In this document: positions 33,792 through 64,000 of the stretch, in pieces
How positions within the stretch are numbered: the first letter of the stretch is position 1
Layout: the number at the start of each line of letters is the position of its first letter
Source: Magnetococcales bacterium
GTDB lineage: Bacteria > Pseudomonadota > Magnetococcia > Magnetococcales > DC0425bin3
Length of the DNA stretch: 64,000 bases
Assembly: GCA_015228935.1 (NCBI GenBank)
Contig: JADGCO010000003.1
Coordinates: 36,987 to 100,986, forward strand
Direction of reading: 5' to 3'
The notes under the pieces: generated by a model
Database searches by the model: none
Told to the model about the DNA's origin: nothing
The model's input: only the letters and a program-made list of their open reading frames with translations
Program-made: the position numbers and the translations under genes

Positions 33792-33898
33792 TTAGATTGT
33801 CTCACCCATGTATATGATACAACATTTTTCAAATAAAGAATTTATTAATTGTTTAATTTATTTTTATGTTTAATTAATCTCTTTATAAATTATTATAT

Positions 33899-35539: not shown

Positions 35540-35584
35540 CGTTACAAATCCCTCAGAAGCTGTCCATGAATTTTCGGAAAAAAA

Positions 35585-37219: not shown

Positions 37220-37613
37220 GGATTGGGTGATCCGGAACCATTTGAAAACGAGATTGATGTGTGCAAAACCCAGGCAGATCCTAAGCGTTCACAAAGACCT
37301 GTGCAAGTCATTTTTTTTTAAAAAACCCTTGACGTGATTTACTTGACCATGGCAGTTTCCGACGGCAGCTTAATTTTTTGTAAGCGACTCGGTCCTGATC
37401 AAGAAACAAATTGTCCTGATTTTTGATCCCAGACGGCTTGAATTTGGCTGAACAGGAATGGTTCAACTTTGTTGCCAGGGATTCAATGCCCGGCAGTCCG
37501 GCGTCTGGAAGACGGCAGGAAAGGACTTTAAAATAATGAAATTGCCTTGCAATGGCAATAAGTTGTCCAGGGATAGAACGTGTATCCGCTACACAGAAGA
37601 AAGGATTGCGATC
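37220..37613. other. Divergent control region exporters / TolC-like gene
   Basis: This 394-bp spacer holds poly-T and poly-A stretches near 37310 and a weak minus-strand promoter candidate. The TolC-like reading frame is formally open back to 37458, but those 52 codons do not resemble a signal peptide and are treated as leader. No operator symmetry was recognised. Confidence 0.45.
37278..37306 (-). promoter_or_regulatory. Weak candidate promoter of the exporter operon
   Basis: On minus, TTGCAC (37301-37306) and TAGGAT (37278-37283) have a 17-bp spacer, about 60 bp before the exporter 3 ATG. Both boxes are mediocre matches. Confidence 0.3.
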
Positions 37614-42500: not shown

Positions 42501-45500
42501 TCACCCCGCACATGAGCATCGCCTTTTCCCAGGCCCAGATGCTTGCGGTCGATGGCCGTTGCAAAACCTTCGATGCCGCCGCCAACGGTTATGTGCGCAG
42601 CGAAGGGTGCGGTGTGGTCGTTCTCAAGCGTTTGAGCCATGCCCAAAAAAATGGGGATACCGTCCTGGCCCTGGTTCTGGGTTCGGCCATCAACCAGGAT
42701 GGCCGCAGCAATGGCTTGACCGCACCCAATGGTCTGGCACAACAGGCCGTCATTCGGCAGGCCCTGGCCGCAGCCGGCGTGACACCCGCCCAGATCACCC
42801 TGGCCGAGGCCCATGGAACCGGAACCCCCCTGGGAGATCCCATCGAAATGAAAGCCTTGCAGGCCGTCCTGAGCGCCGGGCGTCCAGCCGGGCAGCGGTG
42901 TGCCATCGGCGCGGTCAAAAGCAATATTGGTCACCTGGAGGGTGCCGCCGGGATTGCCGGCATCAGCAAGGTGGTGTTGAGTCTGCAACATGCCGAGATT
43001 CCTCCCAATCTGCATCTGCACACCCTCAATCCCCTCATCGAGCTGGACGCAACCCGCTTTTTCCTGCCGACCACCCCGCACCCCTGGGACTCCCCTGCTG
43101 CTGGTCGCCGAATTGCCGGTGTCAGCTCCTTTGGCTTTGGGGGGACCAATGCGCATGTGATCCTGGCCGAACCACCACCCGAGCCACCTGCCACTCCGGT
43201 AACTCCGACAGGGGAAGCGTCTTCTTCTTTGGCAATCCGGACAGGGGAAGCGTTTTCTTCTTTGGCAGTCCGGACAGGGGAAGCATTTTCTTCGGAGAGC
43301 GAACGCCCCTGGCATCTGCTCACGCTTTCCGCCAAGGATGGCAAAGCGTTGCAAGCCTTGGCGGACCGTTACCGTAAACTTTTTACCACCGAGTCAATCC
43401 CTTCTCTTGCCGACCTTTGTTTTAGCGCTAACGTTGGCCGGGCGGCTTTTTCCGAGCGTCTGGTCGTCACGGCAACCACCGGGGCAGAGATGCAGGCCGG
43501 CCTGGCCGCCTTCACAGCCAACCAGCCAGGCAACTGGCAAAGCGCCCGGGTCGATGGCCGACAGATACCCAGGGTGGCCTGGCTCTTTACCGGCCAAGGC
43601 TCCCAATATGTGGGCATGGGCGAGGCGCTGTATGCCACGCAACCCGTCTTCCGGGCTGCGTTTGCCCGCTGTCAGGCCATTCTCGAACCCCTCCTCGGCT
43701 GTTCCCTGCCGGATCTGCTGTGGCCCGGAGAGGGACAGTACGATGGCCGGCTCGACCAGACGGCCTATACCCAGCCGGCGCTGTTTGCCCTGGAGTATGC
43801 CCTGGCGGAAATGTGGCGGGCCTGGGGCGTCACCCCGACGGCGGTCATGGGGCACAGTGTCGGTGAATATGTCGCCGCCTGCATCGCCGGGGTTTTTTCG
43901 CTGGAAGATGGCTTGCGGCTCATTGCCGAACGGGGGCGGTTGATCAACTCCCTGCCTGGCAATGGCAGCATGGTCGCCGTCCAGACCGATGCGGCCCGGG
44001 TCACCGCCGCCATCGGCTCCGAAGCCCAGGTGGTGATTGCCACCATGAACGGTCCCAACAGTCAGGTCATCGCCGGGGAAAAGGAGGCCGTGGCCCGGGT
44101 GGCGACGATCCTCCAGAAGCAGGGGGTGGAACTCCGGCCCCTGACGGTCTCGCATGCCTTTCACTCCCCGCTCCTGGATCCCATCCTGGAACCCTTTGCC
44201 CGGGCTGCCCGGCAGGTCCGTTTCCAGCCGCCTCGCCTGCCGGTCATTTCCAACCTGACCGGTCAGGCCATCAGCGACGCCATGGCCTCCGCCGACTATT
44301 GGGTGGCCCATGTGCGGCAACCGGTCCGTTTTGGCGACGGCATGCGCTCCCTTCTGGAATCGGGATGCGATGTTTTTCTGGAGATTGGCCCGCAGCCCAC
44401 CCTGTTGGCCCTGGGGCAGCGAATTGCCCCTGCTGTTCCCGGCCCGGAAGGCAGCGCGGAACGTCTCTGGCTGCCATCGTTGCGTCCCAAAAAAATGGTC
44501 TGGCCGCAAATTTTATCCACCCTCGGCCAACTCGTTCTGCGTGGTGTGGCCATCGACTGGCGGGGATTTGACCAGGGATATCGCCGCCAGCGGATCGCCC
44601 TGCCCACCTATCCTTTCCAGAGGCAACGCCACTGGCTGGCCACCCCGCCCGCCACGCTGTCCCGCGCAGCCGGCACCCGCCCATCGGCAGGGGGCAGCCA
44701 CGGTCAGGTGACCAACAATCTGCTCGGACGCCGGGTGCAATCGCCTCTGCTGCGGGGAATGTTGTTTGAATCCTCGTTCAATATCGAACGGCTGCCTCTC
44801 CTGGGAGAACATCGGGTTTTTGCCCATCTGGTGGTCCCGGCGGCGGCCCAGTTGTCCCTGTTGCTGGCGGCGGCCCGGGCCGGCTTTGGAACCTCCTCCT
44901 GCGCCCTGGAAGACATCATCTTTCCGCAGGCGCTCGTCATCCCCGAACAACGCGGACGCCGGGTACAGCTTCTCCTGGAACCCCCCGACGCTGCCCAGGA
45001 ACAAAACGGCCACCGTTTCCGGTTGCTCAGTCAGGCGGAAGAGAGTGACCCGGATGCGGAAGACCGCGTGCCAACCTTCCCGGGCAACACCCCCCAATCC
45101 TGGGAGGAGCATGCCAGTGGCCGCCTGCGGGCCGGACCGGTCACCCCCCGGCTGCCGGAGACTCCCCTGGCCACCGTGCAGGCTCGTTGCCCGCAACAGA
45201 TCCTGGCACCGTTTTACACGGACATCTGGCAGCAGAGCATCACGCTGGGGCCGGAGTTTCGCTGGGTGGAGAGCCTCTGGCAGGGGGAAGGCGAACTCCT
45301 GGCCCGTCTGCGTCCGGAAACGCCCGCGCTGGCCCAAAACGACCCGGGACTCCACGCCGGTCTCATCGACTCCATGCTCCAGATCATCACCGGTCTGCTC
45401 TCCCTGACCGCAACCGAGGCCGTGGTCCCGTTTTCCCTGGAGGGATTTCATTATCTGGGAAATCCTGACCGATCCCAACTGTGGAGCCATTTGCTTCTGC

Positions 45501-48113: not shown

Positions 48114-51100
48114 ATGAGTCAGGAACAGGAAAATTACCGTGCCCTGATGGCCAAGGCCTTGCTGGAAATCAAGGGCCTCAAGACCCGTTTGAAAACCCTG
48201 GAAGAAGAACGCAGCGAACCCATTGCCATCATCGGCTATGGCTGCCGCTTTCCGGGTGGTGCCGACAATCCGGAGGGGTATTGGCATCTGCTCCAGAATG
48301 GCATCGATGCCATCGTCGAACTCCCCAAGTCGCGCTGGGACATCAGCGCCTATCACGACCCCGACATGGAAGCCCCGGGCAAAATTTGTACCCGCAATGG
48401 GGGATTTCTGCCCCAGATCGACAGTTTTGATGCCCCGTTTTTCGGAATTTCACCCCGCGAGGCCGAGAGTCTGGATCCCCAGCAACGCCTGCTCCTGGAG
48501 GTGAGTTGGGAAGCCCTGGAAAATGCCAACCTGGTCCCGGAACGGCTGTTCAACAGCCGCACCGGGGTTTTTGTCGGGGTGTGCAGCCTGGATCACGCCA
48601 TCCGCCTGATGGGTGAAGGTCCCCTGGATGCAGTGGATGCCTATCATGGAACCGGATGCGCCTTTGCCCCGGTGGCGGGGCGTATTTCGTTTTTCTTCGG
48701 TTTTACCGGGCCGAGTTTCATTGTGGATACGGCCTGTTCCTCCTCGCTGCTCTCCCTGCATCTGGCCTGCGAAAGTCTGCGGCGGCGCGAGTGTGACCTG
48801 GCCCTGGGGAGCGGCGTCCATCTCCTGACCCATCCCGGCTACTCCATCACCTTTTCCAAGGCCCACATGTTGTCCGTGGATGGGCGTTGCAAAACCTTCG
48901 ATGCGGCGGCCAACGGCTATACCCGGGGCGAGGGGTGCGGGGTCCTCGTTCTCAAACGTCTTGCGGACGCCAAACGGGATGGTGATGTCATCCGTGCCCT
49001 GATTCGCGGCTCGGCGGTCAACCAGGATGGTCCGAGCGGCGGTTTCACGGTCCCCAGAGGCCCCGCCCAGGAGGATGTCATCCGTCAGGCCCTGGCCCGC
49101 GCCAATTTGGACCCCTCCCAGGTGAGCTACATCGAGGCCCACGGCACCGGTACCTCCCTCGGCGACCCCATCGAAATGAGTTCCCTGGGCAATGTGTTCG
49201 GTCCCGGTCACTCCAAAAGCCATCCACTGCGGGTGGCCTCGGTCAAGACCAATATCGGTCATCTGGAGGGAGCCGCCGGGGTTGCCGGGGTGATCAAGGT
49301 TGTCCTGGCCCTGCAACATCGTGCCCTGCCGCCCCACCTGCACCTGAAAAATCCGAGTCCGTTCATTCCCTGGAAGGATATTCCCGTCGAGATACCCACC
49401 CGGTTGACACCCTGGGAGGTCCCGGGTGGCGGCTTGCGGGTGGCGGGCATCAGTTCGTTCGGTTTCAGTGGCACCAACGTGCATCTGGTTCTTTCGGAAC
49501 CGGAACCCTCGGCCACGGATGCTCTGGCCAGCCCGCCAATCCCCCAACCGCCGATGTATCTCCTCCCCCTGGCGGCCAAATCGGAAGATGCCCTGCACGC
49601 CCTGGCCAACCGGTATGCCACCGAAACCCTGCGCCATGAAGACGTGGATCTTGCCGCCGTGACCTGGACGGCGGGCACGGCGCGAACCCTGTTCCGTCGT
49701 CGCCTGGCCGTGGTGGCCGCCGACCGCGAAGAGGCCCGGACCCGTCTGGCCGCCTTTGCCGCCGGACGCCTGGAAGAGGGGATCATCTCCGGCACCCAGT
49801 CGGCCACGGATGGCCCGCCCAAGGTGGGATTTTTGTTCACCGGTCAGGGATCCCAGTATTCCGGCATGGGTCGCCAACTCTATGAGACATCGCCCCTGGT
49901 TCGCGATACCCTCAACCAGTGCGATTCGGTTTTGAAGCCCCTGCTGGGTCGTTCCCTGCTGGAAGTCCTGTTTGCCCCGGAACAGGCAGCGGAACTCGAT
50001 CAGACCGGCAACACCCAGCCGGCCATGTTTGCCCTGGAAGTGGCCCTGGCCCGTCTCTGGCAATCCTGGGGCGTGGAGCCGGTGGCCATGCTGGGCCACA
50101 GTGTCGGCGAATATGCCGCCGCCTGCGTGGCAGGACTCTTCACCCTGGAAGAGGGTCTGCACCTGATCGCCGCCCGCGCCCGTGGCATGCAGAGCCTGCC
50201 GGCAGGGGGAGCCATGAGCGCCATCCTGGCCGACGAGGCCACAGTCAGTGCCGTGGTGGCCACCCATGGGGATGCCCTCTCCGTGGCAGGTGTCAACGGA
50301 CCCCGCAATACCGTCATCTCCGGAACCCGTGCCGCCGTGGACCAGGTGGTTGCCCATTTTACCGGCCTGGGCATCACCTGCCGCCCCTTGCAGGTGTCGC
50401 ACGCCTTCCACTCCGCCCTGATGGATCCCATGCTGGAAGCCTTCCGCACGGTGGCCAATCAGATTCCCTTCAAGACCGGCACCATCCCCGTCATTGCCAA
50501 TGTGGATGCCCAATTGCCGGAGTCCCGGCTGCGGCAGGGGGATTACTGGGTGGAACATGTTCGGCGTCCGGTCCGCTTTGCCGATGGCATGATCCAAATG
50601 GCCGCCAGGGGGTGCAATCTCTTCGTGGAGATTGGTCCGCGTCCGACACTGCTCGGCATGGGCAAGGGGGTTCTCGAAACCACTCACCCGGCCATCGCCA
50701 ACGATCCGGGAGCCTGGCTCCCCAGCCTGCGCAAGGGTGACCCTGCCTGGCGAACGGTTTTGGCGGCCCTGGGTGGTTATTTTGTGCGTGGCGGCCCGGT
50801 CAAATGGGAAACCCTGGGCCGGGGCCGGACCACACTCCCCACCTATCCCTTTCAGCGTCGTCGCCATTGGCGCGAGGTGATCTTCGACGGCGGCGGTACC
50901 CCCCTGCATGGCGAGGCCAGACTGGAACACCCCCTGCTCGGTCGCTGGTTCCGTTCCCCCCTGCTGACCGAAACCCTGTTCGAAACCCTCTTCAGCAAAA
51001 AAAATCTTCCATTCCTGGAAGATCACCGCATTTTCGGGGAACTCGTCGTGGCCGGGGCCTCGCATATTTCCCTGGTCCTGGGAGCAGGTCAGCAGGTTCT

Positions 51101-53846
51101 GGGTACGGCGGCCTGTCAGTTGCGCGACATTTATTTTCCCCAGGCGCTGGTGGTTCCCGAAGAGGGAGAACGCACCGTGCAGCTCGTCCTGAAGGCCGGC
51201 GAGCGGGAAAAAGGCTCCGAGTTTCGTCTGGTCAGTTTTGCCGAGACCAACACCGAACCGAATCTCCATGCCACGGGGCGTCTGCTCCCGACCCCGGCAA
51301 CGGATGCCACACCCCGGGAGGTTCTGGCCAACCAGGAAGCCATCTGGAACCGTTGCGGCCCGGATCTGGATCCCGAGACCGTCTATGCCACCCAGGCCCA
51401 ACGGCAGATTGTCGTGGGTCCCGGATATCGCTGGTTGCGTGCCTTGCGGGTCGGCAACCAGGAGGCCATGGCCAGGCTGTGTGCGCCGACAGGTCTGGAA
51501 AGCGTCGTCAGCCGTTATCAGCTCCATCCCGGCCTGATCGACTCCTGTTTTGGTCTGCTGGTCATGACCCTGGCCATCGATGTCGAAGAGAGTTTCATTC
51601 CCTTCAGCATGGAGGCGGTCCATTTTCACCGTCCCCCCGGCAACACCAACCTCTGGGCCTACGCCCGCCTGCGGCCCGAGGCGGCGGCCCAGGGCCGGTT
51701 GCTCGGGGACATGCATATCGTGACGGAGCATGGCGAACGGGTGGCCGATTTTATCGGCCTGGAAGGTCGCAAGGCAGGACGTGAGGCCCTGCTGCAAAAT
51801 GCCGATCACACCCGCTGGCTCTACCAGGTGCAGTGGCAACCCCTTCCCCCTTCTTCCCAGCCCGCTGCCCATCCCACCGGTACCTGGCTGCTGCTGGAAA
51901 ATCCCGGGGATGGTGCCGGTGCCGCCCTGGCTGCCCGGTTGCAACAACAAGGATGCCGCTGCCTGCGGGTCTTCCCGGGCCAAACAGGGAGTGCCCTGCA
52001 CACCCTGGCCACGGACCAGTATACCCTGGATCCGGAAGATGCCCAGGCCTTTGGCCTTCTGCGCCAGACCCTTGATAAATTGCCTCTGACAGGGGTGGTT
52101 CATCTTTGGTCTTCTTTGCCTGCCAACAGAAAGGTTCCAGACGAAAAGACCCCGGATGGAAAAGCTCCTGACACACAGGCTCCCGACGAAAAAACTCCTG
52201 ACGCACAGGCTCCCGACGGAAAAGCTCCAGATACAGGGGATCTCCACTCCCGGTTGGCACGCACGACCGGCAGTGCGCTTTTCCTGCTTCAGGAACTCCT
52301 CAAGATGGATCCGGTACCGCGTCTTTTTCTGGTCACCCGGGGTGCCCAGGGCGTGGTGGCCGACGATATGGTTGCCGGCTGCCTGCAAACCCCGCTTTGG
52401 GGTCTGGCCAGGAGTCTGGCCGTCGAACATCCGGAATTGCGCAGCGTCTGCGTGGATCTGGAATCCCTCCCGGCAACATCCCAGGCTGCGGGAGCGGCAC
52501 AGGCAGCGGCTGACCTCTCTGCCCCGGCGGCCATGGAGGGTCTGCTGACCGCCCTGGCCGCACCCGAGGCGGAACAGCAACTCGCCTGGCGGGACAACCG
52601 GCTTTACGTCTCCCGCCTTCAACCTCATGCCGATCCCCTGCCGCCGGAGGTCACCCTGCCCGCCGCCGCCACCTATCTCCTCAGTGGGGGGTGTGGCGGG
52701 CTTGGGCTGGAAGTGGCAGGCTGGCTCGTGGAGCGCGGGGCACAAAACCTGGTGTTGCTGGGGCGCACCCCTCCCAACGCCCGGGTTCAGGAGACCATCG
52801 CCAACTGGACCCAAAAAGGGGTGACCATCCAGACTCACCAGGTCGATGTCAGCGATGCCGCTGCCCTGGCCGCAACCTTCCGTGCCATGACCACCACCCT
52901 CCCCCCCCTGCGCGGTATTTTCCACCTTGCCGGACAACTGGAGGATGGTCTGCTCGCAACGCTGCCCTGGTCCCGGTTTGCCCTTCCCCTGGCGGCCAAA
53001 CTCATCGGCGGCTGGAATCTGCATCAGGTTTCCCTGGACCAACCCCTCGATTTTTTCGTCTGCTTCTCGTCGATCACGGCGCTGCTCGGCAACCCCTCCC
53101 AGGGCAACTATGCGGCGGCAAATGCCGGCCTGGACGGATTGATCCATTATCGGCGTGCCGCCGGCCTGCCGGGACTGAGCCTCAACTGGGGTCCCTGGGG
53201 CGAGGTCGGCATGGCCGCCCGCCTCGATCAGGCCAGCCGCAAACGTCTCGCCGAACAGGGTTTGACCCTGATTCCCCCCACCGTCGGACTGCGTCTCCTG
53301 GGTCGCCTGCTGGCAGGCCGGACCGCTCAGGTCGGGGTGCTGCCCATCGACTGGAACCGTTATGCCCCGGCAACCGCCTCCCCGTTCACGGCCCACATGG
53401 TCGCCACCGGCAAAGACCAGAAAACCACCACCTCGGGGGCAGAAGGGCTGCTCAACACCCTGAAGGCGTCCCAACCCCGGCAACGTCGGGACATTCTGCA
53501 AACCTATCTCGCCCGGCAGGTGGGTCAGGTGTTGCGTCTCGAACAGCTCTCCCAGATCGAACCCCGGGGCCGACTCTTCGACCTGGGCATCGACTCCCTG
53601 ATGGCCCTGGAGTTGAAATCCCGGTTGCAGAAGGATTTGCAGGTGACGCTCAGTTCCACCCTGCTGTTCGACTATCCCACCCTGGAAGCCCTGCTCAACC
53701 ATCTCCTGGATGATCTTCTGGCCGACAAGCTGGCCTCCCCACCGGAGCCGGATGCCGGCAGGGAACCCACGCAAGCGCCGGATCTCTCCGAAGCCGAGGC
53801 GGAAGCGGCCCTGCTGGATCAACTCGATAAACTGGGAATCTCCTGA
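48114..53846 (+). CDS. PKS2: KS-AT-DH-KR-ACP polyketide synthase module
   Basis: This is a single 1910-residue extension module. An N-terminal coiled docking helix ([22 protein letters not shown]) precedes KS about 32-459 (DTACSSSL with Cys208; [16 protein letters not shown]). AT spans about 569-849 ([16 protein letters not shown], malonyl type), DH about 936-1215, KR about 1515-1709 ([11 protein letters not shown] in place of [12 protein letters not shown]) and ACP about 1789-1866 (GIDSL). The DH has [12 protein letters not shown], in which Ala replaces the usual Pro of the active-site motif, and HPGLIDS supplies the Asp. The C-terminal acidic helix is a likely docking element for PKS3, whose ATG begins two bases after the stop. 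Confidence 0.94.
52137..52241 (+). repeat. 15-bp repeat in the DH-KR linker of PKS2
   Basis: Seven 15-bp units encode pentapeptides of type [10 protein letters not shown] and PDAQA. This is a proline-punctuated spacer between the reductive subdomains. Confidence 0.85.
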
Positions 53847-53848
53847 GC

Positions 53849-56800
53849 ATGCTGAACGATCCGTCGGGAAAAAGCGATCTGTCGCCCACCAAACGCGCCC
53901 TGCTGGCCCTGCAAACCATGCAGGCCAAGGTGGACCGTCTGGAACGCGAAAAACGCGAACCCATCGCCGTGGTCGGCATGGGGTGTCGATTTCCTGGCGG
54001 TGCGGCCACTCCGGAGGCCTTTTGGCAGTTGCTCCGGGAGGGGCGTGATGCCATGCGCGAAGTGCCCCCGGCCCGGTGGGACATCGAGGCTTTTTACAAT
54101 CCCGATCCGGATGTGCCGGGAAAAATGTATACCCGGGTCGGCGGCTTTCTCGATCAGGTGGATCGTTTCGATCCGCAATTTTTCGGCATCTCCCCCCGGG
54201 AGACCCAGAGCATGGATCCCCACCAGCGCCTCGTGCTGGAGGTGACCTGGGAGGCATTGGAAAATGCCCACATGGCCCCTGACCGGCTCTACAACAGCGT
54301 CACCGGGGTTTTCGTCGGCATGACCAACACCGAATTCGGGGCCAACCTGATCTGGAACAACGACCCGACCCGGATCAGCGGTTACGATGCCTCGGGCGGC
54401 TCGCTCGGGGTGGCGGCGGGACGGCTCTCCTACATCATGGGCTTCACCGGTCCCAGCCTGACGCTCGATACGGCCTGTTCCTCCTCGCTCGTCACGACGC
54501 ACCTGGCCTGTCAAAGCCTGCGCCTGGGTGAATGCGACATGGCCATCTCCGCCGGCGTCAACCTGATTTTCGGCCCGGAGACATTCATCAATTTTTGCAA
54601 GGCGCACATGCTTGCCCCCGATGGCCACTGCAAAACCTTCGACGCCGCCGCCGATGGCTACGCCCGGGGTGAGGGGTGCGGCGTGGTCGTGTTGAAACGC
54701 CTCTCCGACGCCCTGCGCGACGGGGACAGGATTCATGCCCTGCTGCGCGGTTCGGCGGTCAACCAGGATGGACCCAGTGGGGGCTTGACGGTTCCCAATG
54801 GTCCCTCGCAGGTGCGGGTGATCCGCAATGCCCTGGCCAATGGCGGCATTGACCCGGCAGAGGTCGGTCTCATCGAGGCCCATGGCACCGGCACCTCTCT
54901 GGGCGATCCCATCGAAATGGGTGCCCTGGGTACGGTGTTTGGAACCCGCCGCCCTGCCGACAAACCCTTGTGGGTCGGCTCGGTCAAAACCAATTTTGGT
55001 CACCTGGAGTCGGCAGCCGGCATTGCCGGGTTGATCAAGGCCATCCTGGCCGTGGAACACGGGGAGATTCCGCCCCACATGAATTTCAACCACCCTTCGC
55101 CCCACATTGACTGGGCCAATCTGCCGGTACGCATTCCCCGGACTCCCGAACCCTGGGATGCACCCTCCCGCGTCGCCGGGGTCAGTTCTTTCAGCTTCAG
55201 CGGCACCAATGCGCATATTGTGCTGTCTGCCTGGCATCCCGACGAGAATCATTCCCGCCCTGGTCCGGAAAAATCCCCGGCATTGACCACGGCCAGAATT
55301 CCCGACGGAGAGGATTCCCTTGCCAACCCGGCCAGGATCCCCGACGGAGAGGATTCCCTTGCCAACCCGGCCAGGATTTCCAACGGGACAGATTCCCGCC
55401 CTGAACCGGCAAGTCCGTCATCCCCGACAGCAGTCATTCTGCCCCTCTCGGCCAAAAACAAACCCGCCCTGGCCGAACTCGCCCGCCAGCATCAGGCCAG
55501 ACTCGGCCAGCAGCCGCCAGCCGTGCAGGATTGGCGGGCCTGGTGTGCGGCTGCCGGACAGGGACGCAACCATTTCAACGAACGTCTCGCAGTGGTTGCC
55601 AGCGAACCGGCCCAGGCGGCAGACATGTTGGCCTCTCTGCTGCCCGGTATCGCCGACCCCTCCCCGACTGCCGCCCCCCCTGCCGCCGGATCGGGCTGGC
55701 TGGGATCCGTGCCGGGCGGGGTACGCCCCAAGGTGGTGTTTCTGTTTACCGGGCAGGGTGCGCAATATGTGGGCATGGCCCGCCAACTGTATGACCAGGA
55801 ACCCCTTTTCCGGGCCACCCTGGAGCAGTGCGACGCCCTCCTGCGGCCCCATCTCGAACGGTCCCTGCTGGCCATGCTCTATCCGGCTCCCGGGGTGACG
55901 GATGCCGAGGCCGTCATCAACTCCACGGCCAATACCCAGCCCCTGCTGTTTGCCATCGAGTATGCCCTGGCGCAACTCTGGATCTCCTGGGGCATCACCC
56001 CCGATGCCGTGCTGGGTCACAGCGTGGGGGAATATGTCGCAGCCTGTCTGGCCGGGGTGTTTTCCCTGGAAGAGGGATTGCGCCTGATTGCGGCCCGTGG
56101 CCGGTTGATGGTGACCCACTGCACCCCCGGGGCCATGCTGGCCATCACCCTGGATGAAGAGGCGGTCCGCGAGGCCCTGCAACCCTATGGCGAGTCGCTC
56201 GCCATCGCCACCCTCAATGGCCCCCAACGGGTGGTGGTCGCCGGCGAGAGTCAGGCCGTTGCAACCCTGGCCGCCGCCCTCGATGAACGCGGGGTGGAAA
56301 ACAAGCGCCTGCAAGTCTCGCACGCCTTCCACTCGCCGCTCATGCAACCGATGCTCGCCCCCTTCCGCCAGGAGGTCAGCCGGATCCGTTGCCAAAAACC
56401 AACCTTGCCGCTCTGCTCCAATCTGACGGGCAAACTGGCCGACACGGAACTGACCGATCCGGAGTATTGGTGCCGGCATGTGCGCCAACCGGTGCGTTTT
56501 GCCGCCGGGCTGCACACCTTGATCGAGGCCGGCTATCGCCTGTTCCTGGAGGTTGGCCCGAAACCGGTTTTGGCCCATCTCGGCCAGGCCTTCCAGGAAG
56601 AGGTGTTTCCCACCCTCCGGACCACCTGGCTCACCACCCTGCGGCAAAATCGGGACCCCCATACCCACATGTTGCAGACCCTGGGACAACTCTACGTCCA
56701 GGGCGTCACCCCCGACTGGGCGGCGGTCACCCCCGGCAGGCGCGGTCTGGAAGAACATCTGCCCAACTATCCCTTCCAGCGGCAACGCTACTGGTACGAG

Positions 56801-59797
56801 GAACGTAAAAAATCGGCCTTCGCCATGCCCCGGGGAGAACATCCCCTGTTGGGGGCACCGCTCCACTCCCCCGGCTTTGCGGAAGGGGTGCAGGTCCATG
56901 TCAACCACCTGGAACCATCGGCCTCCGGTTTTCTGGCCCACCATCGCATTTTTTCCGCAGTCACGTTGCCGGCGGCAGCCTTTGTGGAGATGGTTCTCGC
57001 CGCAGGGCATCTGCGCCTTGCAGCCGGCAAGTTGACCCTTGAAGCGTTCGCCATCCACAAGGCCCTGGTGTTTCCGGAACAGGGTTCCCGCCAGGTCCAG
57101 GTGGTGTTGCGACCGGAAACCAACGGTTTTGCCTTTGACATTTTCAGTGCCGACGCCGCACTGACCACCGAATGGATGTTGCATGCCTCGGGACGGGTCA
57201 CCACGACCAGCGAGCAGGAGATGATTCCGGATCGTGACATGCCCCACCTGCGTGCCCTGGGTCGGACGGAAATTCCGGTTCAGGAGTTTTATGACCTGGT
57301 GTGCAGTGTGGGCATTTTTCATGACGAACGGTTCCAGGCCCTGGAACGTCTCTGGCACGGGGATGGGGTGATTGTCGGCGCGTTGCGTCTGCCGGAGGTG
57401 TTGCTTGCCGATGCCGCCCCCTATCACCTCCATCCGGTGTTGCTGGATGCCGCCTTGCAGATGGTGGGTGCCTTGTTGCTGCACCATGGCTTGGCGTATC
57501 TGCCGGTCGGGATGGAGCGTCTGATCCTGCATCGGCGGCCCGACATGCACCTGTGGTGCCGGGTCACGAAAACCTCGGCAGATACGGAACAAGCGGCCCG
57601 TTTTCATACGGCGGATCTGGAGTTGTTGACAGATCAGGGCGTGGTGGTGGTGACCATCGAGGGGTTGCGTTTTCAGCAGGTGGATGCCGGGGCGCTGGCC
57701 GGTCAGCTTCCCGTCCAAAAATGGCTCTACACCCCGACCTGGGAAGCCCGGGAATGGACCGATATCGATCCGGCGGACAGGAGTTCCCCGCCTGCCCCGA
57801 CAGAAGATCCCTGGTTGATTCTGGCCGACCGGGGGGGCGTGGGCGTCAGTCTGGCGGTCCTCCTGAAAAAAACCGGCAGCACCCTGACCCTGGTGACCCG
57901 GTCCGGCGACAGCATTCCGGTCCAGGAACTGGCTCCAGGCAACGAAAAAGGAATAAAATACCTCGCCGACGCCGGCGTTCCGATCCAGGTGTTGGATCCG
58001 GGCAACGAGGAAGGAATCAGGCATCTTCTGGAACGCCGGGAAGCCAGCCAACCCTGGCGGGGAATTGTTTTTGCCTGGGGCCTGGACACACCTCTGGCCC
58101 CGAACCTGACCCCAACCTCTCTCGAAGAGGCCCAGCAGCAGGGATGCGGGGCCGTGTTGGCGCTCGTGCAAGCCTTGTTGCGTCTTGATCTGCCCCAGGT
58201 GCCGGCTCTCTGGCTGGTGACCCGGGATGCCGTCCACATTCCCGGCAGCGATAGCGGTAACGCCGGTCTGGCCCAGGCCACCTTGTGGGGCCTGGGGCGG
58301 GTCATCGCCACCGAACTGCCCAACCTGACCGTCAAACTTCTGGATCTTCCCCTGACTTTGGATCCGGACCACGCCGCCGCCTCTCTGGCCCGGGAACTCT
58401 CCGCCCAGGATACCGGAGAACGCCAGATAGCCTTGCGGGATGCAGCCTTGACCGATGCCGGGAAACCCGGAAACGCCTTGCGGGATGCAGCCTTGACCGA
58501 TGCCGGGAAACCCGGAAACGATACGCATGGACTCACCCGTTTTGTGGCCCGTCTGACCCCCTGGCAGGAAACCACCCGCCAACCCCTGCCGGTCCGGGAA
58601 AATGCGCGTCATCTCATCGTGGGCGGTCTGGGGGGCCTGGGTCTGGAGGTGGCACAGTGGCTGGCCACCACCCGGGGTGCCCGCCATCTGGTTCTCATGG
58701 GACGCTCGCCGGCCAGGCCGGAAATTCTCCCCCGTCTGGACGCCCTGCGTGCCCAGGGGGTCGAGGTGGAGGTGGTCCAGGCTGACATCGCCGATGCCGG
58801 ACAGGTGGCGGCCCTTCTGGCCCCTGCTGCCGGGAATACCGCGCCCTGGGGCGGGGTCATCCATGCGGCGGGTGTCCTGGATGACGGCATGCTGGAAAGC
58901 CTCACCTGGCCACGCTTCCAGAAGGTGATGGCGGCCAAGGTGACCGGAGCCTGGAATCTGCATCAGGCCACGGCTTCCCTGCATCTGGATTATTTTGTCC
59001 TCTTCTCTTCCATGGCCTCGTTGTTCGGTTCTCCGGCCCAGGCCAACTATGCCGCCGCCAATGCCTTCCTCGACGCCCTGGGAGGTCATCGCCGCCAGAG
59101 CGGCTTGCCGGCCATGGTCATCAACTGGGGTCCCTGGGCGGAGATCGGGGCAGCGGCCAACCGACCGGCCAGCGGCAATCTTGGCATCAAAGGGGTTGGG
59201 TCCCTGGCACCCGCCGAAGGCCTGCGCATCCTCGACCACTGTTTCGACCATCCGGCGGGACACATCGTGGCTGGCAAGGTACAGTGGCCGCAATTGCTCG
59301 CCATCCCGGGCCTGGCCACCCCGTTCCTGGCCCATTTCCTGGCCCAACGCCAGGAAAGTGGCACCAGACAACCGGAATTTCTGGCGACGCTCCGGGAACT
59401 GCCCCTGAACGAGCAACGTGCCCGGTTGCTGGAACATGTCAAGTCCCAACTGGCCCGGGTGCTGGGCATCCCCTCCAGCCGTGACATCGACGAAAACAAG
59501 GGCTTCTTCGACCTGGGCATGGACTCGCTCACCTCGGTGGAACTCCGCAATGCCCTGCAAGCCACCCTGGGAACCTCCCTCTCTTCGACCCTGCTCTTCA
59601 AGTTCACGACCCCTCTGGCCCTGGGGACCCATCTGGCGGAAAAACTCCTGGATTCCAAGGGTTCCGCCCCGGTCCCTGCCACCCCCGCAACACCAGTCGC
59701 ACCAGCCGAAACCCTGTTGCAGGATGTCAAAACCTTGTCCGACACGGATATCGAGGCCCTGATCAATCAGGAATTTGCCAATCTGGTGCAGGGATGA
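53849..59797 (+). CDS. PKS3: KS-AT-DH-KR-ACP polyketide synthase module
   Basis: This 1982-residue module has the same layout as PKS2. A docking helix (ALLALQTMQAKVDRLEREKRE) is followed by KS about 36-460 (DTACSSSL with Cys210; EAHGTGT; KTNFGHLES), AT about 629-914 (GHSVGEYVAAC; HAFHS, malonyl type) and DH about 994-1280 (AHHRIFSAVTLP; HPVLLDAALQ, with Ser replacing Gly of the HxxxG motif). KR about 1584-1767 (VGGLGGLG; AGVLDDG, B-type; ANYAAANAF) and ACP about 1857-1930 (GMDSL) follow. All main catalytic residues are present. With no ER, the expected result is another trans-type double bond if the DH is active. The 3' end is partially duplicated downstream. Confidence 0.94.
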   Translation: MLNDPSGKSDLSPTKRALLALQTMQAKVDRLEREKREPIAVVGMGCRFPGGAATPEAFWQLLREGRDAMREVPPARWDIEAFYNPDPDVPGKMYTRVGGFLDQVDRFDPQFFGISPRETQSMDPHQRLVLEVTWEALENAHMAPDRLYNSVTGVFVGMTNTEFGANLIWNNDPTRISGYDASGGSLGVAAGRLSYIMGFTGPSLTLDTACSSSLVTTHLACQSLRLGECDMAISAGVNLIFGPETFINFCKAHMLAPDGHCKTFDAAADGYARGEGCGVVVLKRLSDALRDGDRIHALLRGSAVNQDGPSGGLTVPNGPSQVRVIRNALANGGIDPAEVGLIEAHGTGTSLGDPIEMGALGTVFGTRRPADKPLWVGSVKTNFGHLESAAGIAGLIKAILAVEHGEIPPHMNFNHPSPHIDWANLPVRIPRTPEPWDAPSRVAGVSSFSFSGTNAHIVLSAWHPDENHSRPGPEKSPALTTARIPDGEDSLANPARIPDGEDSLANPARISNGTDSRPEPASPSSPTAVILPLSAKNKPALAELARQHQARLGQQPPAVQDWRAWCAAAGQGRNHFNERLAVVASEPAQAADMLASLLPGIADPSPTAAPPAAGSGWLGSVPGGVRPKVVFLFTGQGAQYVGMARQLYDQEPLFRATLEQCDALLRPHLERSLLAMLYPAPGVTDAEAVINSTANTQPLLFAIEYALAQLWISWGITPDAVLGHSVGEYVAACLAGVFSLEEGLRLIAARGRLMVTHCTPGAMLAITLDEEAVREALQPYGESLAIATLNGPQRVVVAGESQAVATLAAALDERGVENKRLQVSHAFHSPLMQPMLAPFRQEVSRIRCQKPTLPLCSNLTGKLADTELTDPEYWCRHVRQPVRFAAGLHTLIEAGYRLFLEVGPKPVLAHLGQAFQEEVFPTLRTTWLTTLRQNRDPHTHMLQTLGQLYVQGVTPDWAAVTPGRRGLEEHLPNYPFQRQRYWYEERKKSAFAMPRGEHPLLGAPLHSPGFAEGVQVHVNHLEPSASGFLAHHRIFSAVTLPAAAFVEMVLAAGHLRLAAGKLTLEAFAIHKALVFPEQGSRQVQVVLRPETNGFAFDIFSADAALTTEWMLHASGRVTTTSEQEMIPDRDMPHLRALGRTEIPVQEFYDLVCSVGIFHDERFQALERLWHGDGVIVGALRLPEVLLADAAPYHLHPVLLDAALQMVGALLLHHGLAYLPVGMERLILHRRPDMHLWCRVTKTSADTEQAARFHTADLELLTDQGVVVVTIEGLRFQQVDAGALAGQLPVQKWLYTPTWEAREWTDIDPADRSSPPAPTEDPWLILADRGGVGVSLAVLLKKTGSTLTLVTRSGDSIPVQELAPGNEKGIKYLADAGVPIQVLDPGNEEGIRHLLERREASQPWRGIVFAWGLDTPLAPNLTPTSLEEAQQQGCGAVLALVQALLRLDLPQVPALWLVTRDAVHIPGSDSGNAGLAQATLWGLGRVIATELPNLTVKLLDLPLTLDPDHAAASLARELSAQDTGERQIALRDAALTDAGKPGNALRDAALTDAGKPGNDTHGLTRFVARLTPWQETTRQPLPVRENARHLIVGGLGGLGLEVAQWLATTRGARHLVLMGRSPARPEILPRLDALRAQGVEVEVVQADIADAGQVAALLAPAAGNTAPWGGVIHAAGVLDDGMLESLTWPRFQKVMAAKVTGAWNLHQATASLHLDYFVLFSSMASLFGSPAQANYAAANAFLDALGGHRRQSGLPAMVINWGPWAEIGAAANRPASGNLGIKGVGSLAPAEGLRILDHCFDHPAGHIVAGKVQWPQLLAIPGLATPFLAHFLAQRQESGTRQPEFLATLRELPLNEQRARLLEHVKSQLARVLGIPSSRDIDENKGFFDLGMDSLTSVELRNALQATLGTSLSSTLLFKFTTPLALGTHLAEKLLDSKGSAPVPATPATPVAPAETLLQDVKTLSDTDIEALINQEFANLVQG
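55292..55399 (+). repeat. 39-bp repeat in the KS-AT linker of PKS3
   Basis: Units start at 55292, 55331 and 55370. The first two are nearly identical and encode ARIPDGEDSLANP; the third has diverged. Confidence 0.9.
58430..58519 (+). repeat. Perfect 45-bp duplication in PKS3
   Basis: Positions 58430-58474 and 58475-58519 are identical, encoding ALRDAALTDAGKPGN twice just before the KR domain. Sequence identity implies a very recent slippage event or active homogenisation. Confidence 0.92.
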
Positions 59798-59900
59798 TGG
59801 CAATGACCGGCAAATCTGGAGCAAAGCACATGGCAAAGAACATCGCGGCCACGGTCAATCAAGAATTGGCAAATCCGGTGCAGAGGTCATGGCGATGAAC
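59762..59900 (+). repeat. Partial duplication of the PKS3 3' end before PKS4
   Basis: About 45 bp at 59762-59806, encoding the last residues and stop of PKS3, are repeated with changes at 59855-59900, where they run into the PKS4 start. The 93-bp spacing is a multiple of three. A 33-codon frame (59797-59898) spans the gap, but I do not call it a gene. Confidence 0.75.
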
Positions 59901-62900
59901 CAGGTAAACCCGGATCACAAGGAACTCACGGCCCTGCAACGGGCAGCCTTTGCCCTCAAGGAGATGCGGGCCAGGATCGATGCCCTGGAAGGGGCACAGC
60001 GCGAGCCGATTGCCATCATCGGCCTGGGATGCCGCTTTCCGGAAGCACCCGACATTGATGCCTTCTGGAACCTGCTCTGTGCAGGCCGGGAGACCATACG
60101 CGAAGTTCCCAAGGCACGCTGGGATCTGGATCACTTCTATGATGCCAACGTCCATGCCCCGGGTAAAATCAACACCCGTCATGGCAGTTTTCTCAGTGAG
60201 GAGAGTGTCTATGGTTTCGATGCCGGCTTTTTCGGCATCCCCCCCCGCGAGGCCCTGCGCATGGATCCGCAACAGCGGTTGCTGCTGGAAGTGGCCTGGG
60301 AAACCATGGAAGATGCCGGCGTGATTCCGGCCTCCCTGCGCAACAGCCGCACCGGTTTCTACCTCGGCATGACCCAGAACGATTATGGCATCAGGCAACT
60401 AAGCGGCGATACCCGGGAGATTGTCGCGTTCACGGGTACCGGCAACGGTCTCTGCTTTGCGTCGGGGCGCGTCTCATTTACCTTCGGTTTTCAGGGTCCC
60501 TGCCTGGCCGTCGATACGGCCTGTTCATCCGCCGGGGTGGCCCTGCATCTGGCGGTCAACGGCCTGCGGCAGAAGGAGTGCGATCTGGCCCTGGTGGGCG
60601 GGGTACAGCTCAATCTGACCCCGGAGATGCAAATCTTTTTTGCCAAGATTCAGGCATTTTCCCCTGGTGGCCGCTGTTTCACCTTCGATGCCCGGGCCGA
60701 TGGTCTGGTGCTGGGCGAGGGGTGCGGGGTGGTTCTTCTCAAACGTCTGTCGGACGCCCTGGCCGACGGCAACACCATCCACGCCGTGATTCGCGCCACC
60801 GCAACCAACAATGACGGACCGGCCAGCGGTCTGACCGTCCCCAACGAAGGTGCCCAGGAAAAACTCATCCGCGCCGCCCTGGATGCGGCCCGCCTGCCGG
60901 CGGATGCCGTGGGATATGTCGAGGCCCATGGGACGGGCACCAGCCTGGGAGACCCCATCGAAGTCGGTGCCCTGCGCACCATTTTTGGCGGGCGGCCCCC
61001 GGAAGACCCCCTCATGCTCGGTTCGGTCAAGACCAACCTGGGCCATCTCCTGGCCGCTTCCGGCATGGCCGGTATCCTCAAGACGGTGTTGATGCTGCGT
61101 CACGAAACCGTGGTGCCGCATCTCAACTTTGTCACCCCCAGTCCCAAAATACCCTGGGAAGGGTTTCCGGTAGAAGTGGTCACCACCCGCCGTCCCTGGC
61201 CACGCGGAAAAAAACCCCGCATTGCCGGGGTCAGCTCGTTCAGCCTCAGCGGCACCAACTGTTTCACCCTTCTGGAGGAGGCCCCGCCTCCCTCTGCGAT
61301 CACTTGGCCAGGGCGACAACCCACCCGGCACCTTTTTACCCTGAGCGCCAAGACTCCTGCGGCGTTGCTGGACCTGGCCAGGGCGCACCTGCGTCACCTG
61401 CACGAGGCCTCGGCCACCCTCTCCCTGGCCGACCTGTGCCATACTGTCAACGCCGGACGCAGCCACTTCGACCATCGGCTGGCCATTCCGTGTGATTCAC
61501 TCGTCGCGCTGCAAAGCGTGTTGTCGGGTTATACCTCTGACACAGGAATGGAAATACCCGGACTGACCGCCAATAACCATGACAAAACACCTGACCTGAC
61601 CACCAACATCCGTGACAAAATACCCGGTCTGCATACATCCGAGTTGCCCCGGAGCCTGAACCTGCGCCCGGTCCTGCTTTTGGCAGGCCACCTGGAACGG
61701 GCCGCCTTGCAGGCTCTTCACGCCAGTCATCCCGGTTTCCAGGCACTTGTCAAACGTCATGATCCGCTGTTCTCACCCCATCTCGGCACTTCCCTGGCCA
61801 CCTGTTTTCTGGAAGATTTCCGGCTCCCTCCGACCGACAATCAACAGGCAGAAGAACAACAAACGGCCATGGCAACCAGACTCCTTCAGTTTGCCGATCA
61901 CTATCTTCTGGCGCAACTCTGGCAGGAGTGGGGCGTGGTTCCGGCGGCGGTCATCGGCGATGGCATGGGACTTTGGGCAGCGGCGGTCGTGGCCGGACTC
62001 CTGAGTCTGGAAGAGACCCTGATCATGCTGGCCGGGAAAAAACCGGTGACAAGGGTCACCTGGCATCCGGCGCAGATCACCATCCTGGACACCCGGGGCG
62101 TTGTTTTCAATGCGTCTCGGGCAACGACGCTGCTGGCCACAACGACCACGCCGGTGGACTCCGCTTCCCGTCAGACGACCACTGTCCCCTCTCTCCATCC
62201 TTCAAACACGAACGCTCTCCAGCCTGCAACCAGCTTCCAGCCTGCAACCAGCTTCCAGCCTGCAACCAGCTTCCAGCCTGGAATCACCGTCCTGACGGCG
62301 CAAGAGTACGAAACCATTTTCCGGGGTGCTGCCACGCCCCAGCCACCGGATCCCGGCCGTCCATCCGATCCGCTGGCCACGCTCCAGCCCCCCACCGCCC
62401 GACTCCAGCCTGACCTGGATGGCGTGATGGCCCTTTATCTGCGCGGCATGACCCTTGATTGGCAAAAAAGGCATGCCGGGTACGGATGGTCGCTTTTGCA
62501 TGTGCCGGGTTATCCGTTTCAGAGAATACGTTATTGCCTGGAACCACCCCCCAGGCCAGCGCCGGTCACCACCACATCACCGGTGGCGTTGCCATCCAGA
62601 CCGGCACCGGAAACAGAGACCTCATCTGTGGAGCCACCGGCGCAACCTGAACCTCAATCATCGACTGGAACCGGTGACCACAGGCCAGCCATTCCACCCG
62701 GATCGCCCTTGCCGACCGAAACCGGCGGCCAAAAAGAACCGGTTGCGGAAAAGGCCGGAGAAAAAATGCCGCTGCCTGCGGCAGTGGGACACCCGCCAGC
62801 CGTGGCCCGCATCCTGGCGCAACAACTGCACACCGTATCGCAAACGCTCACGGGTGTTGTGGCCCAGCAATTGGCCCTGTTGCAGGGACACTCCCGGCTG

Positions 62901-64000
62901 CGCGCCGGAAACCGGATATCATCGACAACCGGTCAGATGACCCCGGTCCCTGCCGCCATTGCCGCACAGGAGACCCCGGTCTCAGCCGCCGTCGCCGCAC
63001 AGAAGGCCCCGGTCTCAGCCGCCGTCGCCGTGCAGGAGACTCCGGCCCCACTTGCCACCAAACAGGAAATTCCGGTCTCAGTCGTCACCACCGCCAAGCC
63101 GAAAACCCAGGAACCGGCAGTCATGGCCAGACCGGAAACCTCATCCCCAACCACCAACAGGCAGGAAAGTCCGGCCCCAGCCGCCACCAACAGGCAGGAG
63201 ACTCCGGCCCCAGCCGCCACCAACAGGCAGGAGAGTCCGGCCCCAGCCGCCACCACGCAAGCGATTGGCCCGTCTGCAACAGCGGATGAGACGACACAAT
63301 CTGCGGTCACCCTGGGCACATGGCACCTGTTGCTTCTTGCCACGGCGGATGCACCGGCCATGAAGGCAGCAAAAGAGGAGGCCAGCACCGCTCTGCGCCA
63401 GGATCCCGGCCCAACCGTCACCAGAAGCACACAACTTTTGACCCGCAAGGCAACCGAAGAACACCGTTTATTCCAGGTGTACGACACCCCTGAGACCGGG
63501 GCAAAACAACTCGAAAGCAACGATGCCCGTCGGGTGATCGAGGTCCGCTGCCCGGGAACCGCCACCTCCCCGGTCTTCATGTTTCCCGGCGTGGGGGATC
63601 ACTACCTGCACATGGCCAAAGGGTTGTACCAACAGGACCCGGTCTTCCGGAAATGGCTCGATTATGGCTGTCAACGCCTGGTCGGCGAACTGGGCGTGGA
63701 TTTGCGCACCCTGCTCTACCCCCGGGACCCGGAACCGGCCAAACCGGTCCCAACGGAGAAACCGGCATCAACAGAGAAACCGGCATCAACGACCACAACC
63801 CCGACGGCAAAACCAGTCCCGACGGCAGCCGAAAAACCCCGCTTCGATCTGAAAGCCATGCTGGGACGCGGAAACGCCGCCCCCCCGGACCCCAGGCTCC
63901 AGATTCTGAACAAGACCATCCATATTCAACCCCTGATTTTCATCATTGAATATGCCCTGGGACACATGTGGCTGGCCCGGGGTGTACGTCCCACGGCCCT
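59895..64000 (+). CDS. PKS4: KS, degenerate AT, long linker, second AT-like domain (3'-truncated)
   Basis: The frame stays open to the right edge, giving 1368 codons seen. ATG 59895 has AGAGG about seven bases upstream; ATG 59889 is also possible. After the docking helix comes a full KS (DTACSSAG with Cys210; EAHGTGT; KTNLGHLLAASG). The next region keeps an AT framework (LAQLWQEWGVVPAAVIG, then LLSLEETLIMLAG, later VPGYPFQRIRY), but the nucleophile motif GHSVG is replaced by GDGMG, with Gly690 where Ser should be, and much of the domain is missing. A repeat-rich Pro/Ala/Thr linker of about 250-300 residues follows. A second AT-like domain then begins with VFMFPGVGDHYLHMAKGLY and is cut by the window end. 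Confidence 0.88.
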   Translation, partial: MNQVNPDHKELTALQRAAFALKEMRARIDALEGAQREPIAIIGLGCRFPEAPDIDAFWNLLCAGRETIREVPKARWDLDHFYDANVHAPGKINTRHGSFLSEESVYGFDAGFFGIPPREALRMDPQQRLLLEVAWETMEDAGVIPASLRNSRTGFYLGMTQNDYGIRQLSGDTREIVAFTGTGNGLCFASGRVSFTFGFQGPCLAVDTACSSAGVALHLAVNGLRQKECDLALVGGVQLNLTPEMQIFFAKIQAFSPGGRCFTFDARADGLVLGEGCGVVLLKRLSDALADGNTIHAVIRATATNNDGPASGLTVPNEGAQEKLIRAALDAARLPADAVGYVEAHGTGTSLGDPIEVGALRTIFGGRPPEDPLMLGSVKTNLGHLLAASGMAGILKTVLMLRHETVVPHLNFVTPSPKIPWEGFPVEVVTTRRPWPRGKKPRIAGVSSFSLSGTNCFTLLEEAPPPSAITWPGRQPTRHLFTLSAKTPAALLDLARAHLRHLHEASATLSLADLCHTVNAGRSHFDHRLAIPCDSLVALQSVLSGYTSDTGMEIPGLTANNHDKTPDLTTNIRDKIPGLHTSELPRSLNLRPVLLLAGHLERAALQALHASHPGFQALVKRHDPLFSPHLGTSLATCFLEDFRLPPTDNQQAEEQQTAMATRLLQFADHYLLAQLWQEWGVVPAAVIGDGMGLWAAAVVAGLLSLEETLIMLAGKKPVTRVTWHPAQITILDTRGVVFNASRATTLLATTTTPVDSASRQTTTVPSLHPSNTNALQPATSFQPATSFQPATSFQPGITVLTAQEYETIFRGAATPQPPDPGRPSDPLATLQPPTARLQPDLDGVMALYLRGMTLDWQKRHAGYGWSLLHVPGYPFQRIRYCLEPPPRPAPVTTTSPVALPSRPAPETETSSVEPPAQPEPQSSTGTGDHRPAIPPGSPLPTETGGQKEPVAEKAGEKMPLPAAVGHPPAVARILAQQLHTVSQTLTGVVAQQLALLQGHSRLRAGNRISSTTGQMTPVPAAIAAQETPVSAAVAAQKAPVSAAVAVQETPAPLATKQEIPVSVVTTAKPKTQEPAVMARPETSSPTTNRQESPAPAATNRQETPAPAATNRQESPAPAATTQAIGPSATADETTQSAVTLGTWHLLLLATADAPAMKAAKEEASTALRQDPGPTVTRSTQLLTRKATEEHRLFQVYDTPETGAKQLESNDARRVIEVRCPGTATSPVFMFPGVGDHYLHMAKGLYQQDPVFRKWLDYGCQRLVGELGVDLRTLLYPRDPEPAKPVPTEKPASTEKPASTTTTPTAKPVPTAAEKPRFDLKAMLGRGNAAPPDPRLQILNKTIHIQPLIFIIEYALGHMWLARGVRPTA
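62217..62280 (+). repeat. 18-bp repeat inside the degenerate AT of PKS4
   Basis: About three and a half 18-bp units encode LQPATS/FQPATS hexapeptides. They interrupt what should be the second half of an AT domain. Confidence 0.88.
63153..63251 (+). repeat. 33-bp repeat in the PKS4 linker
   Basis: Three nearly identical 33-bp units (63153, 63186, 63219) encode TNRQESPAPAA. Related shorter repeats with ETPVSAAVAA lie at about 62940-63060. Confidence 0.88.

Follow-up and report, generated by a model that had tools for sequence, protein, structure and literature searches.

PKS4, a polyketide synthase (PKS) protein encoded at the end of a 64,000-nucleotide stretch of DNA from a Magnetococcales bacterium (the window), contains two acyltransferase (AT) domains: a dead one, referred to here as AT°, and an intact one, AT2. 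The arrangement is a conserved one: the PKS module is split, its dead AT has been kept, and behind this a probable AT for extender units carried on acyl carrier protein (ACP) has been added. The best explanation, to which we assign a probability of about 0.7, is that a lipopeptide assembly line has in PKS4 its fourth extension module, split over two proteins, in which AT° would act as a scaffold and AT2 would charge the next protein's ACP with hydroxymalonyl. The window covers positions 36,987 to 100,986 of contig JADGCO010000003.1 (contig C3 of assembly GCA_015228935.1, a draft of 197 contigs with the handle G000; G000:C3:36987-100986), and the contig extends 8 kb beyond it. Coordinates are those of the window unless stated otherwise, and PKS1-4 with their parts lie on the plus strand.

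Architecture of PKS4

The PKS4 frame opens with an ATG at 59895, leaves the window (59895..64000 lie inside it) and, when read on along contig C3, stops at window-equivalent 64709 (G000:C3:101695). The protein is 1,604 aa long from this ATG, or 1,644 aa counted from the first possible start, and consists of a ketosynthase (KS), a KS-AT linker domain, the dead AT, a post-AT linker with the YPFQR motif, a Pro/Ala-rich linker, a second linker domain and AT2, directly before the stop. No KR, DH or ACP was detected by Pfam in the complete protein. The ketosynthase, KS4 (60003..61130; PF00109/PF02801), has the catalytic motifs DTACSS, HGTGT and NLGH, and is followed by a CurL-like/RhiE-like linker domain at 61329..61520.

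An earlier, sequence-only reading had called the first AT (AT°, 61713..62510) dead, with its nucleophile serine replaced by Gly690 (GDGMG for GHSVG), and the alignment with the intact ATs of the three upstream proteins PKS1-3 agrees. GDGMG at 61956-61970 corresponds to residues 688-692 in ATG numbering, so the residue number is also correct; GDGMGLW replaces GHSVGEY, a lysine replaces the arginine, HAFHS is absent and the small subdomain is mostly gone. Pfam Acyl_transf_1 (PF00698) matches AT° over positions 17-115 of 319 only, and the catalytic Ser/Arg/His motifs of this family are missing. What is retained is the half of the domain that forms the large subdomain, together with both flanking linkers (YPFQR of the post-AT linker at 62511..62525), and AT° would serve as a scaffold to maintain the fold of the KS-AT body. 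The same reading had described the domain as shortened and invaded by 18-bp repeats. Both features are present, but they are of separate origin: the subdomain loss is an ancestral deletion, whereas the tandem repeat (3.5 copies, 100%, 62218-62280, plus strand) occurs in the window genome only and is a local addition.

The Pro/Ala-rich linker carries 33-bp in-frame repeats in two arrays (62939..63255), and a second KS-AT linker domain (63321..63581), identified by homologue alignment and a structure model, leads into AT2. As had been noticed, the second AT-like domain starts with FPGVGDHY after a long linker; the motif begins at 63582, 357 residues past the start of YPFQR, the final ~87 of these being the second linker domain. 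The GQGSQ form ascribed to modules 1-3 is not general, as module 3 has GQGAQ. The N-terminal part of AT2 lies in the window (63582..64000), and reading the rest of PKS4 on contig C3, which had been proposed as a check, shows the domain to be complete and intact, running ~240 residues past the window with GYSTGEY at 64005 and HAFHS at 64299. PF00698 matches AT2 over positions 1-295 of 319, and GYSTGEY, Arg178 and HAFHS are invariant in the alignment.

Short repeats are also found nearby. An imperfect direct duplication of ~45 bp occurs where PKS3 ends and PKS4 begins (59755-59900; AATCAGGAATTTGCCAATCTGGTGCAG... / AATCAAGAATTGGCAAATCCGGTGCAG...), and the inter-domain linkers of PKS3 contain in-frame tandem repeats resembling those of PKS4 at about 55300-55395 and 58440-58540 (ARIPDGEDSLANP..., ALRDAALTDAGKPGN...). 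Linkers of the window genome seem to be prone to such repeats.

AT2 and its extender unit

The AT of ZmaA, with the motif GYSFG, is specific for hydroxymalonyl-ACP and ZmaF, with GYSLG, for aminomalonyl-ACP, whereas ATs that load from CoA show GHSXG (PMC4207774). AT2, with GYSTG, has the GYSXG form of ATs using ACP-linked extenders. Its closest solved relative is ZmaA-AT, both by sequence and by fold (PDB 4qbu; pLDDT of the AT2 model 80). In a tree of 132 ATs, AT2 falls within a clade of 57 (support 100), all members of which have GYS and which includes Streptomyces AT-ACP-FkbM proteins and is rich in ATs adjoining FkbK-J-I-H cassettes; the ATs of PKS1-3 group with CurL. The proposal that the second AT is of a different type was therefore sound. 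No further intact GYS-type AT was found in the window genome.

FkbK-J-I-H genes make ACP-bound hydroxymalonyl or methoxymalonyl, and all four lie directly 3' of PKS4: a 3-hydroxyacyl-CoA dehydrogenase (FkbK), a free ACP (FkbJ), an acyl-CoA dehydrogenase (FkbI) and FkbH, the last scoring 272 bits with TIGR01686 (curated cut-off 147). Pfam and tblastn searches found no O-methyltransferase of the FkbG or FkbM type among the genes of locus L002 or in the line on contig C10 (see below), remote genes not being searched, and hydroxymalonyl is therefore favoured over methoxymalonyl. Tandem repeats of 70 bp and about 60 bp occur in the stretches that separate PKS4, the free ACP of the cassette and the gene for the acyl-CoA dehydrogenase (L002:5675-5809, L002:6994-7247). 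A tetronate route, in which FkbH acts with a KASIII, was rejected: both FkbK and FkbI are encoded here, and a search for KASIII (PF08541) found two FabH-type genes, both away from the cassette, and none inside it.

Given the GYS clade, the Fkb cassette and the ZmaA match, an altered extender unit, which had been suggested as one possibility, is the best reading of an AT2 that differs in type from AT°, and AT2 probably transfers this unit from ACP to ACP. The other possibility raised was product transfer. ACP-dependent ATs do include chain shuttles such as VinK (PMC6164871), and AT2 stands at the end of its protein without an ACP of its own, so that it might move an acyl chain rather than an extender. 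We consider this improbable, since AT2 clusters with ATs that stand in line after a KS beside extender cassettes, retains, by alignment, the carboxylate-binding arginine that is expected of ATs acting on malonyl-type substrates, and is encoded directly before such a cassette.

GYS-type ATs occur in other settings as well. In a plasmid of Streptomyces sp. NBC_00984 (L020:8199-13068) a dissociated version is seen: a free-standing GYS-type AT follows a set of 3-hydroxyacyl-CoA dehydrogenase, ACP and acyl-CoA dehydrogenase genes, and KS, condensation and ACP proteins, likewise discrete, are encoded close by. Large PKS genes of Herpetosiphon aurantiacus (L041, L043), Rhodanobacter (L044) and Idiomarina (L046) encode many consecutive GYS-type ATs, with no Fkb cassette in the sequence examined; their products could possibly be polyols built from repeated ACP-linked extender units.

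The partner protein and the proposed mechanism

The ACP that PKS4 lacks is found in homologous loci at the start of the downstream gene, fused to a class III aminotransferase (AMT). This holds for L021, L022, L024, L133 and G458, with non-ribosomal peptide synthetase (NRPS) domains next where the sequence reaches (ACP-aminotransferase-C-A-PCP), and in G458 PKS4, FkbKJIH and ACP-AMT are contiguous. In the window genome the ACP-AMT homologue (AMT 53% identical) lies on contig C10, and after it come PKS5 (KS-dead AT-KR-PCP; G000:C10:31806-36659, minus strand; L118:11807-16660) and an NRPS (C-A-PCP-sulfotransferase-C-A-PCP-TE, with a TubC_N docking domain and the sulfotransferase, PF13469, between its two modules; G000:C10:22164-30608, minus strand; L118:2165-10609). 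The gene order of the relatives, and an amphipathic helix common to PKS4 and the ACP-AMT protein, suggest that C3 and C10 belong to one pathway. The helix, ILAQQLHTVSQTLTGVVAQQLALL in PKS4 (62811..62882), has the shared form ILAQQLHTVSQTL(T/S)(G/A)VV(A/T)QQL; the likeness of helix pairs averages 0.56 within loci and 0.48 between them across the five pairs compared (3 of 120 permutations do as well). In L133 each helix of the pair is four residues longer. Such pairing would fit docking or gene conversion.

In the proposed mechanism, FAAL and three KS-AT-DH-KR-ACP modules would build a polyene acyl chain, and the cassette would make hydroxymalonyl on its free ACP. AT2 would take hydroxymalonyl from this carrier and pass it to the ACP at the N-terminus of the next protein, with the matching helices perhaps holding that protein at PKS4, and KS4 would condense the polyene acyl chain with it. 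The aminotransferase would then convert the beta-ketone to an amine, yielding an alpha-hydroxy-beta-amino fatty acid, and an Asx-type A domain, PKS5 with its KR, Ser-type and Gly-type A domains and a TE would act after this step. The A-domain codes read from the motifs are DATKVGEVG, DVWHISLVD and DILQLGMVW, which we take to specify Asx, Ser and Gly, respectively.

The AT of PKS5 is dead in the window genome (GHGIG, no HAFHS, small subdomain lost), its counterpart being intact in L023 and L135. Because AT2 is the sole intact GYS-type AT found there, it may serve PKS5 in trans as well. That AT2 mainly serves PKS5, the PKS4 module being loaded by another AT such as FabD, could draw on the same two facts, but is unlikely: the PKS5 proteins of the L021 and L022 genomes come with an intact GYS-type AT, yet PKS4 keeps AT2 there under strong purifying selection. 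More tentatively, the arrangement could represent a natural way of changing the extender without disturbing the fold, in which the old AT became a selected, catalytically empty scaffold, and a new ACP-dependent AT was appended with its own linker domain, loading an ACP on a separate protein via a matched helix pair and, in the window genome, also serving a second AT-dead module in trans.

Recurrence and selection

A genome scan with the AT2-family alignment returned three loci of the same order, in Parabeggiatoa (L021), Thiotrichaceae (L022) and Desulfobacterales (L024). Further copies were found in the L024 genome (L133, its second) and in two genomes of the L021 order (G458, G472), giving seven loci including the window. 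Beyond the window, five genomes thus hold six KS-AT°-AT loci; they are relatives of Beggiatoa and a Desulfobacterales metagenome-assembled genome, from at least two bacterial groups. The serine of the first AT is replaced by Gly or Asn throughout (GDGMG, GNGVG, GNGVG, GWNGG, GRNGG, GHGVG and GEGVG), and the same small subdomain is missing in 7/7 loci. In the L021/L022 pair, the ratio of non-synonymous to synonymous substitution (dN/dS) is 0.09 for AT2, 0.18 for KS and 0.26 for AT°, where 13 of 26 changes are non-synonymous and neutrality is rejected at P = 0.002. The dead AT is maintained rather than decaying, at least in this pair.

The sequence-only reading had seen in PKS4 a replacement caught in the act, with an old AT dying and a new one just arrived. 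In favour of such decay, AT° is more degraded in the window genome than in its relatives and bears the 18-bp repeats, and a second dead AT exists in this genome, in PKS5. The conserved arrangement largely refutes it, however: the same architecture and losses recur in the six other loci, the dN/dS values of the closest pair show constraint on both ATs, and the KS4 motifs, ACP, FkbH and AMT are intact. We regard an ongoing swap as very improbable, and its presence in five further genomes marks KS-AT°-AT2 as a settled design and not a gene mid-decay. An assembly artefact, with two genes joined or a repeat-rich region collapsed, might be suspected from the repeat-rich linker and the 197-contig draft but is scarcely credible, as the same order appears in independent assemblies and a single open frame spans all the repeats of PKS4.

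The arrangement is rare. It was found only in the window genome among 399 genomes of its own phylum, in 1 of 390 from the class to which the Desulfobacterales genome belongs and in at least 4 of 43 in the L021 order, the screens having used strict cut-offs so that these counts are lower bounds. No description of a KS-dead AT-second AT module was found in the literature searched, most subscription journals being outside its coverage.

Several points weigh against the preferred explanation of PKS4 as a split module loaded with hydroxymalonyl by AT2. ZmaA was rejected as the sister of AT2, as it lies outside the GYS clade, and because it sits elsewhere in the tree the GYS motif seems to have arisen at least twice. 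Many ATs of the GYS clade show no cassette in the sequence examined, and one retrieval pattern was GYSxGEYVA, which enriched the clade for that motif; plasmid relatives that were retrieved by plain tblastn and adjoin cassettes also show GYS. Moreover, where ATs for ACP-linked extenders have hydrophobic residues in place of RXR (before the YASH motif), AT2 reads MTR, which is only partly hydrophobic, the first residue being hydrophobic and the third still Arg. The AT° model has low confidence (pLDDT 52), and nothing was drawn from it beyond the fact that it matches ATs in their N-terminal half. Selection was measured in one pair, L021/L022, outside the window lineage. In addition, no contig of the window genome joins PKS4 and the ACP-AMT protein, and the helix test covers five pairs only, a likeness for which gene conversion could account.

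Attempts to alter a polyketide by AT swapping often harm the module. Here, evolution has seemingly avoided this harm in at least seven loci by keeping the husk and adding a new AT. As such, PKS4 offers a natural design for AT replacement and a probable case of AT loading across a protein boundary.

Neighbouring genes

Upstream of PKS4 lie PKS1 (FAAL-ACP-KS-AT-DH-KR-ACP; 39512..47851), PKS2 (KS-AT-DH-KR-ACP; 48114..53846) and PKS3 (KS-AT-DH-KR-ACP; 53849..59797), the last of which presumably hands the chain over to KS4. Their in-line ATs are intact by alignment, and only PKS4 and PKS5 are without a working one. Past the Fkb cassette lie genes for a small protein, an exporter and a type II-like thioesterase. 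The cluster is flanked by ABC exporter genes, four in all: a tandem set of three runs the other way (32103-37219, minus), one of the cyclic peptide export type is found downstream (L002:10591-12234, plus), and an outer-membrane efflux protein is encoded at 37458-39377. A separate group of FkbH-like, FabH-like and ACP genes is located at G000:C10:8215-12999 (minus strand).

Comparison with known systems

A close characterised parallel is the AT of ZmaA (zwittermicin; PDB 4qbu), which shares the GYSXG motif with AT2, is its best match in sequence and fold, and takes hydroxymalonyl from a carrier ACP (PMC4207774). ZmaA-AT, however, stands in line after its own KS, whereas AT2 is a second AT at the end of its protein, and the two belong to different clades of the tree. 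AT2 may also be likened to the discrete methoxymalonyl-ACP AT of the OzmC type (oxazolomycin; PMC6164871), a comparison made through a probable relative in S. durmitorensis (L017) and not through the sequence of OzmC itself. This relative belongs to the same GYS clade and adjoins a cassette of 3-hydroxyacyl-CoA dehydrogenase, ACP, acyl-CoA dehydrogenase and FkbH genes; OzmC is a discrete protein and the L017 AT is joined to an ACP and an FkbM methyltransferase, whereas AT2 is tethered to a KS and has no methyltransferase found near its cassette. Similarly, cyanobacterial KS-AT modules beside FkbK-J-I-H (Nostoc, Gloeocapsopsis, Chroococcidiopsis) have ATs 46-48% identical to AT2, and share with it a DLRKMLGR insert and the cassette gene order, but that AT is the sole one of its module, in the usual place.

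Modules of trans-AT PKSs retain a degenerate AT-docking remnant next to the KS and rely on another AT, much as PKS4 probably does. The present line is not of the trans-AT kind, in which modules without ATs are served by discrete ones: the in-line ATs of PKS1-3 are still in working order, and AT2 shares one polypeptide with the remnant.

The predicted product can be compared with anabaenolysin, a cyclic lipopeptide of Gly, Gly, AOFHA and a C18 beta-amino acid with a triene (PMC3400675). The module order here predicts a polyene alpha-hydroxy-beta-amino acid, Asx extended with a reduced hydroxymalonyl (the AOFHA skeleton), two residues and release by a TE. It is colinear with the order derived from the anabaenolysin product, rather than from the abl genes: FAAL, DH/KR modules, hydroxymalonyl with AMT, Asx, hydroxymalonyl with KR, two residues and TE. 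The A-domain codes, read as Asx-Ser-Gly, and the NRPS-embedded sulfotransferase are differences from anabaenolysin. Module order and A-domain codes fit an anabaenolysin-like lipopeptide, and the cluster provides a lead to such compounds outside cyanobacteria.

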